A stretch of 64,000 bases of DNA from Isoptericola sp. BMS4 (GTDB taxonomy: Bacteria > Actinomycetota > Actinomycetes > Actinomycetales > Cellulomonadaceae): assembly GCF_011634835.1 (NCBI RefSeq), contig NZ_SIRP01000001.1, forward strand, positions 3,839,748 to 3,903,747, given 5' to 3'. Positions 11,061-12,162 of the stretch are shown here, piece by piece (the stretch's first letter is position 1; every line of letters begins with the position of its first letter). The notes under the pieces were generated by a model. It saw nothing but the letters and a program-made list of their open reading frames with translations. It was not told the DNA's origin and did not search any database. The position numbers and the translations under genes were made by a program.

Positions 11061-11120
11061 GTTGTGGGCGTGAGTTTGGCGCTATTCCTGACGGAATAGC
11101 GCCAAACTCACGCCCACAGC
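11061..11120. repeat. 60-nt palindromic hairpin, left copy flanking the DUF559 gene
   Basis: Arms 11061-11088 and 11093-11120 form a 28-bp stem (27 Watson-Crick, one T/G) with the 4-nt loop TGAC. The arms are identical base for base to those of the hairpin at 12103-12162; only the loops differ. Ends are GTTGTGGG and CCCACAGC. The right arm contains the stop codon and last codons of the DUF559 gene. Confidence 0.9.
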
Positions 11121-12037
11121 GTTCGGGCAGCGGGCCGGAGCACGGCACGCACCCGGGCCACCAGCCCGCGCGGGTCCCGGAGGTCGTCGGCCACGACGAC
11201 GATGACGTGCCACCCCAGTGCCTCCAGCGTGCGGCGGCGGCGCACGTCGTCACGCCACTGCTCCTTGTCGGTACGGTGCTGGTCGCCGTCGTACTCGATC
11301 GCGACGTGGTGCCGGCGGTAGAGCATGTCGACACGCTTCACGTAGCTCCCGTCGGGCGCCAGGACGACCCCGTTGACCTCGGGACATGGCAGGTTCGCGG
11401 CAATCAGGGCCAAGCGCGTGCGCGTCTCGGTCGACGAGTCGGTCCCCGGCCGCATCCTCTCGACCTGCTCACGCACCTGCGCGATCCCCTTGACCTTGTG
11501 GGTGCGGTCCGCGACGTCCTGCAGCTCGGCACGGCTGACGAGGCAGTGCTCGCGCCGCATCAGCGCGTCCCCGAGCACGACGACGTCGTCCGGTCGGCGG
11601 AGCCCGACGGCGACGTGCACGAACGTCTGGGCCGGCGCGGTCACGAGGAGCCCACCGACCTCGATCGTGTCGAGCCGCACCTGCCGCGATCGGTGTGCCA
11701 CGACGGCTTCGCGCTCCCGCTGCGGCCGGTCCTGCGGGCGTGTCGTCACGACATGGATCCGGTCGTCATGCTCGAGCGTCCAGGGAACCTCGACCCCGAG
11801 CAGCCGCAGCGCGGTCCCGTGACCGAAGGCCACACCCTCGTCCAGCACTGTCGCGAGCGCGCCGCACCGTGCCCGGAGGTCGTCGGTCCATCCCGCCGGG
11901 ACTCGGACACCGGTGAACGGCGCCTCGAACGCAGCGGTGCGCAGGTGGCCGCTGTCGATGCCCGACACTCTCGCCGCGGCGACGGGGAACGGGCCGGACG
12001 GAAGCCGGGCGTCGGCGATCGGCGTGGGGCGGGGCAT
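11108..12037 (-). CDS. DUF559 (Vsr-like PD-(D/E)xK) endonuclease-domain protein
   Basis: A 309-residue protein of the abundant but uncharacterised actinobacterial type with an AbiEi-like N-terminal part and a C-terminal DUF559 domain. N-terminal half: ARVSGIDSGHLRTAAF, then GHGTALRLLGVEVPW. C-terminal nuclease core: E204 in STETRTR, D237 in KRVDMLYRRHH, E248 and D250 in VAIEYDGDQHR, then RRRTLEALGWHVIVV, which match the expected acidic active site. ATG at 12037 with GAGGG upstream. The last codons (Thr-Leu-Trp-Ala) and the TGA lie in or at the edge of the right arm of the hairpin at 11061-11120. Unrelated in function to its neighbours, which suggests independent insertion. Confidence 0.85.
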   Translation of the reverse strand: MPRPTPIADARLPSGPFPVAAARVSGIDSGHLRTAAFEAPFTGVRVPAGWTDDLRARCGALATVLDEGVAFGHGTALRLLGVEVPWTLEHDDRIHVVTTRPQDRPQREREAVVAHRSRQVRLDTIEVGGLLVTAPAQTFVHVAVGLRRPDDVVVLGDALMRREHCLVSRAELQDVADRTHKVKGIAQVREQVERMRPGTDSSTETRTRLALIAANLPCPEVNGVVLAPDGSYVKRVDMLYRRHHVAIEYDGDQHRTDKEQWRDDVRRRRTLEALGWHVIVVVADDLRDPRGLVARVRAVLRPAARTLWA

Positions 12038-12102
12038 GGAACGACCCTCGCAAGGCCGGCGTCTGCGCGCTCTCGTCATCCACAGACCCCACGCCGGGAA
12101 GT

Positions 12103-12162
12103 GTTGTGGGCGTGAGTTTGGCGCTATTCCGTCGGGAATAGCGCCAAACTCACGCCCACAGC
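12103..12162. repeat. 60-nt palindromic hairpin, right copy flanking the DUF559 gene
   Basis: Arms 12103-12130 and 12135-12162, identical in sequence to those at 11061-11120, loop GTCG instead of TGAC. Located 65 bp upstream of the DUF559 start and 23 bp after the end of the universal stress protein gene, for which it could also serve as terminator. Confidence 0.9.

Follow-up and report, generated by a model that had tools for sequence, protein, structure and literature searches.

The locus analysed here lies in the genome of Isoptericola sp. BMS4 (G000), in a stretch of 64,000 nucleotides that was analysed as a whole (the window), and consists of a single gene for a DUF559-type nuclease placed between two 60-nt hairpins (Table 1); the immediate neighbours of the gene are ABC ATPase/permease and universal stress protein genes. 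Each hairpin arm of 28 nt comprises 26 perfect base pairs, one T.G mismatch and a closing G-C pair. The arms are the same in both hairpins, the 4-nt loop alone being variable, so that the arms, loops and coordinates of a preliminary description of this DNA proved accurate. The two flanking hairpins are the longest in the window (26 bp vs. 14 bp for the next best), their arm core has 4 matches vs. 0.00 by chance, and their DNA folding energy of about −36 kcal/mol (z of about −14.6) was equalled by 0 of 200 shuffles. There is no T tract 3' of either hairpin. The overlap of the stop codon with the downstream hairpin is a layout that recurs in many related units; an alternative start of the gene is the second in-frame ATG, at residue 15.

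Table 1 Features of the hairpin-bracketed nuclease gene in the window.
Feature	Coordinates	Strand	Details
Downstream flanking hairpin	11061..11120	.	26-bp perfect stem + T.G + G-C, loop TGAC; dispersed 60-nt palindrome family
Upstream flanking hairpin	12103..12162	.	arms as in the downstream copy, loop GTCG; dispersed 60-nt palindrome family
AbiEi-like/DUF559 nuclease gene	11108..12079	-	323 aa
AbiEi antitoxin-like fold, residues 20-210, predicted DNA-binding part	11450..12022	-	PADLOC AbiEi E 1.9 × 10−5; 6y8q Z 10.8, 175 residues
Vsr/EDxHD-type nuclease (DUF559/MTES_1575), residues 213-319	11123..11443	-	invariant S215, E218, D251, E262, D264, G289
Nuclease gene stop codon	11108..11110	-	lies within the downstream hairpin's outer arm (...CTG TGG GCG TGA)

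The encoded protein matches the Pfam DUF559 model with 26.3 bits (cut-off 20.6), and residues 244–312 match both DUF559 and REase_MTES_1575, the latter below its curated cut-off; residues 60–192 match AbiEi (PADLOC, E = 1.9 × 10−5), and NCBIfam gave no match to the 323-aa protein. Profile comparison with solved structures identified NGO0050 (E = 6.6 × 10−11) and the homing endonuclease I-Bth0305I (E = 2 × 10−4). When the predicted model (mean pLDDT 92.5) was compared with structures in the PDB, Foldseek returned nothing at E ≤ 0.001, and the fold assignment therefore rests on a second-look aligner and on the sequence profiles. With this aligner, model residues ~212–319 matched I-Bth0305I (3r3p, Z 12.3), NGO0050 (Z 11.2) and Vsr (1cw0, Z 10.2), and residues 20–210 matched an AbiEi antitoxin (6y8q, Z 10.8 over 175 residues, rmsd 5.3). 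The nuclease residues given in Table 1 are invariant in 45 of 45 homologs. The DUF559 match, the fold and the invariant acids bear out the original reading of the gene as a Vsr-like nuclease with an acidic core. The whole protein is predicted to be an AbiEi-type fold fused to a Vsr/EDxHD homing-endonuclease fold, and its N-terminal part, judged by fold, may bind DNA in the manner of AbiEi.

The hairpin pair at first appeared near-unique, the exact search with a 19-nt arm yielding one further site, but a degenerate pattern revealed about 19 further family members dispersed in the 4.4-Mb genome (whole-genome palindrome counts for G000 combine pattern and model searches). The arm is thus not absent elsewhere in the genome; such an absence was what the preliminary description had named as speaking against its proposal. 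The 21 aligned copies are 60–61 nt long, all begin with G[TC][TC]GTGGGC and have nearly invariant ends (GTTGTGGGC...GCCCACAAC); the loops vary freely among the dispersed copies. In the stems of these 21 copies, 47 double-change cells were counted vs. 13.6 ± 3.2 in shuffles, and 94.6% of the cells are paired; this covariation may reflect structural selection or template-switch correction of quasi-palindromes, as both fit. When palindromes of four families of this genome were mapped with a home-made gene caller, 36 of 36 were intergenic, with 20 located between convergent, 14 between tandem and 2 between divergent gene pairs. Inspection by eye of flanks of the dispersed copies showed no target-site duplication, and scans of sequence collections with the exact arm gave no match in viral contigs. 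They gave one half-match, in the unrelated bacterium Rhodomicrobium, where the sequence does not form a hairpin; identification through Rfam was rejected because the matches fell below the gathering scores and nearly all were to microRNA models, i.e. generic hairpins.

At two dispersed sites, comparison with relatives was informative on how the hairpin relates to its surroundings. At one, a GC-rich terminator whose tail is T-rich immediately precedes the hairpin; seven relatives retain this terminator region but no hairpin, and G011 has its own type of hairpin at that place. At the other, relatives have nothing more than a short terminator, a short spacer or a different palindrome. Since relatives keep an ordinary terminator without the hairpin, the hairpin is an added element and not simply a terminator. 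At the second site, the G011 ortholog (L265/L280) carries a nested palindrome of more than 100 nt (CGCGAGATAGAGAACCCC...) in place of the G000 hairpin.

Across the genus, the gene order ABC ATPase, permease, DUF559 gene or nothing, universal stress protein was found in 17 of 17 genomes. The DUF559 gene is present at the locus in 11 of these, and all 11 have a hairpin on both sides, five of them with larger or imperfect loops that the strict hairpin detector missed; orthologous loci with the gene and without hairpins, which had been put forward as evidence against a unit, were not found. The arms match within the locus of one genome and differ between genomes (e.g. GTGAGTTTGGCGC, GAGCGGRCNTTTGGCCC, GGGCATGAAATCTGCAG, GGGCGCGATTTCTGGCC). 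In G005 and G012, the orientation of the gene between its hairpins is inverted, as recombination between the palindromes would allow. No gene was detected in the remaining six genomes (G002, G003, G004, G009, G010 and G011): the gene-free locus of G011 and G009 retains one hairpin of the general unit type, that of G002, G003 and G004 contains an ordinary GC-rich hairpin, and in G010 an assembly gap lies beside a hairpin, so that the gene may yet be present there.

The main clades of the DUF559 tree and of the neighbour-gene tree are concordant, indicating vertical inheritance of the gene together with its hairpins at this locus, with losses. On the same grounds, we rejected a recent spread of the unit by horizontal transfer within the genus, and a recent arrival of this particular unit found no support, since it is vertically inherited and the gene and hairpins change together. 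With regard to homing-type spread at the locus, gene-free sites are present, and the trees indicate vertical inheritance. Close relatives yielded no fresh pair of empty and filled sites showing defined ends or a target duplication. The dN/dS ratio of the DUF559 gene is 0.12–0.24 vs. 0.07–0.10 for the neighbour gene, that is, the DUF559 gene evolves faster, still under purifying selection.

The abundance of the palindromes broadly follows the gene. Pattern counts (both strands summed) are 20–89 in nine near-complete gene-bearing genomes, 14 in the incomplete, gene-bearing G016, and 0–3 in the gene-free G002, G003, G004 and G009; copy number differs significantly between gene-bearing and gene-free genomes (Mann-Whitney p = 0.0024, with relatedness ignored and few gene-free genomes). 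Two genomes depart from the trend: G011, where the gene is missing at the locus, has about nine hairpins, which would fit a recent loss of the gene, and the count of 6 in G012 corresponds to the two flanking hairpins plus chance matches, so that the unit is present there with no matching dispersed copies. Dispersed copies cognate to the unit were found within the genus in G000, G005, G006 (~48), G010, G016 and G017, and, in the other genera where sequences were read, dispersed hairpins match the arms of the genome's own unit in G035, G028, G070, G114 and G119; in G082, the best dispersed hairpins resemble the family of a genus-mate, not its own unit. Using a covariance model derived from hairpins of several genera, with up to 150 candidates scored per genome, we obtained 10–101 matches per genome in other genera with bracketed units vs. 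0–8 in genomes without them, apart from G019, which gave 30 and has another palindrome family, described below, without any PF04480 hit.

Copies also tend to lie near the gene in several genomes. Thus, 5 of 21 copies in G017 are located within 50 kb of the gene vs. 0.63 expected (p = 3 × 10−4), and 5 of 20 in G005 are on the gene's 93-kb contig (p = 7 × 10−5), whereas clustering was marginal in G000 (p = 0.017, 250 kb) and G006 (p = 0.06); several distances were tried, and these p values are uncorrected. The palindromes of G006 at L255–L258 have constant outer 22–23 nt of the arms and an inner ~7 bp that differs in each copy and is nevertheless perfectly paired, a pattern that hints at template switching or at copying by fold-back.

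To assess how general the arrangement is, we surveyed 102 DUF559 genes from 25 genera of the family, with 1.18 Mb of surrounding DNA (relatedness was ignored in the association tests of this survey). Among 32 mutually similar hairpin pairs spaced 500–1900 bp apart, 28 enclose a DUF559 gene and the remaining four directly adjoin one. With the near-gene clustering in several genomes, these counts go against the possibility, raised at the outset as a refutation, that copies show no tendency to lie beside DUF559 genes. A flank-vs-flank match score of at least 24 was reached for 64 of 98 DUF559 genes compared to 48 of 1200 placebo placements (4%), which had identical geometry elsewhere in the surveyed loci; many of these 48 came from loci with known extra copies. 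Not every matching flank is a hairpin: a rough criterion classes 25 of the 66 upstream copies as strongly palindromic. In the protein tree, bracketed members account for 45 of 50 in one clade, and for 15 of 30 and 5 of 15 in two others. The permease/stress-protein locus is common to members of the genus only; thus, the units of other genera lie elsewhere. Some DUF559 genes are surrounded by arrays of short direct repeats in place of hairpins, namely those at L107, L108, L147 and L149 (CGAGGTAGAG...), and further arrays bracket the genes at L098 (TGTGGCATG...) and L115 (GTGGAGCGTTCCCGGCCCAT...).

The hallmarks of RAYTs include two flanking REPs, joint change of gene and repeats, evolution faster than that of the neighbours, correlated abundance and new REPs near the gene (PMC2817692); RAYTs are also single-copy and vertically inherited (PMC8049555). 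The unit described here shares with them the lone gene between two cognate palindromes (11/11 in the genus and matching flanks for 64/98 genes in the family), extragenic dispersed copies of the cognate palindrome, gene presence that tracks palindrome abundance (with G011 and G012 as exceptions), a gene that changes together with its palindromes and outpaces its neighbours, copies near the gene, and a single vertically inherited gene per genome at the locus. However, its enzyme is a predicted Vsr/EDxHD-like nuclease with an AbiEi-like module rather than an HUH/Y1 transposase (PF01797, Y1/RAYT, was detected in 0 of 18 genus genomes, with control genomes positive); its palindrome forms a long hairpin of 60 nt that is mostly perfect, ends in GTTGTG/CACAAC and lacks the GTAG tag; and it occurs in tens of copies, whereas many REP families reach hundreds. 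Given the different enzyme and the missing tag, the unit appears to work like REP/RAYT without being a member of it. The bracketing, the dispersal, the matched change and the abundance that follows the gene all support the REP/RAYT-like unit that had been proposed, and we consider it probable (roughly 0.7) that an unrelated enzyme here forms the core of a REP/RAYT-like system, in which the dispersed intergenic palindromes depend on the gene for their long-term upkeep. Counting against this view, we saw no copying or transposition event, G011, G012 and G082 depart from the pattern, clustering is marginal in G000 and G006, and there are further palindrome families for which no driver was found. 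The association suggests that the nuclease recognises, copies or spreads the palindromes and that the cause runs from the gene to the repeats.

These data could be read in other ways. The protein might be a regulator, an AbiEi-like DNA-binding protein for which the flanking palindromes are operators and the dispersed ones a regulon, the nuclease being otherwise used: antitoxins of the AbiEi family control their own promoters through inverted repeats to which they bind (PMC7319586), the fold match is to AbiEi, and every mapped copy is intergenic. However, with 20 of 36 copies between convergent gene ends and 2 between divergent genes, the palindromes are mainly at 3' ends, the downstream hairpin overlaps the stop codon, all 45 proteins compared keep the nuclease acids unchanged, and in some genomes the copies are concentrated around the gene, all of which makes a regulator unlikely. 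Slightly less likely still is that a freestanding homing-type gene landed in pre-existing palindromic repeats that are spread by something else. Such a passenger would be compatible with I-Bth0305I, a homing endonuclease, as the closest solved nuclease, with the single hairpin at the gene-free site of G011, with the inversion of the gene between its hairpins in G005 and G012, and with the units at other loci in other genera; but the repeats are nearly absent from genomes that lack the gene, one or two exceptions apart, each unit has its matching repeat sequence rather than one common to the species, and the agreement of the gene and neighbour trees implies no recent homing within the genus.

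Finally, the hairpins could be terminators or RNA-level elements homogenised by gene conversion and template switching, with the nuclease uninvolved. Quasi-palindromes are known to undergo template switching, and the hairpins are very stable and mostly located at gene ends. Nevertheless, the two flanking hairpins are not followed by a T tract, one dispersed copy follows a conserved terminator that is also present in relatives lacking the hairpin, and copies track the DUF559 gene across species and pair specifically around DUF559, so that we regard this explanation as quite improbable.

Under the preferred reading, in which the palindromes depend on the gene, the AbiEi-like module would recognise the palindrome, either as a duplex inverted repeat or as an extruded or single-stranded hairpin; the Vsr/EDxHD-like nuclease would then cut or nick the palindrome or a nearby target, and host repair would fill the break with a copy of the hairpin, with a preference for sites close to the gene. 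Recognition, cutting and repair copying are all conjectured from the pattern of association and from the predicted folds; the stems may in addition be re-perfected via template switching. The broader proposition, that these units form an undescribed class convergent with REP/RAYT, in which an AbiEi-guided Vsr/EDxHD nuclease spreads short non-coding hairpins by cut-and-repair copying, and which is widespread in this bacterial family, appears to us to have slightly better than even odds.

Individual parts of the unit have known counterparts. The nuclease shares its fold and acidic core with EDxHD (I-Bth0305I) and Vsr enzymes but is fused to an AbiEi-like domain, lies outside any intron or intein, and is bracketed by dispersed palindromes. 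The fold of residues 20–210 resembles the AbiEi antitoxin of type IV toxin-antitoxin systems; however, the protein carries a nuclease domain, and no AbiEii nucleotidyltransferase toxin gene lies beside the unit in the genus members checked. Caulobacter VsrA (CCNA_02930) is likewise a DUF559 Vsr-like nuclease, responsible for a DNA damage response in vivo; in contrast to the present case, it was studied with a solitary cytosine methyltransferase, and the main text of that report contains no palindromes or hairpins (PMC12907096). Palindromes are not mentioned in another paper on DUF559 (PMC9403480), and we found no earlier account of a DUF559-palindrome system in the open-access literature, a scope that leaves out subscription journals and preprints.

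To our knowledge, HUH tyrosine transposases are so far the one enzyme class to which REP elements with a dedicated enzyme have been tied. If an unrelated nuclease carries the genetic signature of REP/RAYT, partnerships between enzymes and palindromes would have evolved more than once. If the proposed role is correct, it would assign a function to many DUF559 proteins, supply a possible driver of palindromic repeats where RAYTs are missing and yield new sequence- or structure-specific nucleases, the flanks of which would directly show their likely targets.

The genome of G000 contains three other palindrome families with the same outer ends. One is represented in the window by a hairpin at 310–371 (G[CT]TGTGGGTACG...) and has more copies in G000, including one ~280 bp past the window end; this family is also present in G019. 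The other two were found at L244, L250–L253 and L346 (TGTGAGCGCGATTTCGGGG) and at L339 and L340 (GTTGTGGGCGCGAGACACGCCGC). In the loci read around these three families, a small part of the genome, no second, divergent driver was found. Palindromes of other kinds occur near the examined sites, at 2986–3047 of L249 (GTCGGCACTCC...) and at 2714–2773 of L343 (GTCGGCAGTCC...).
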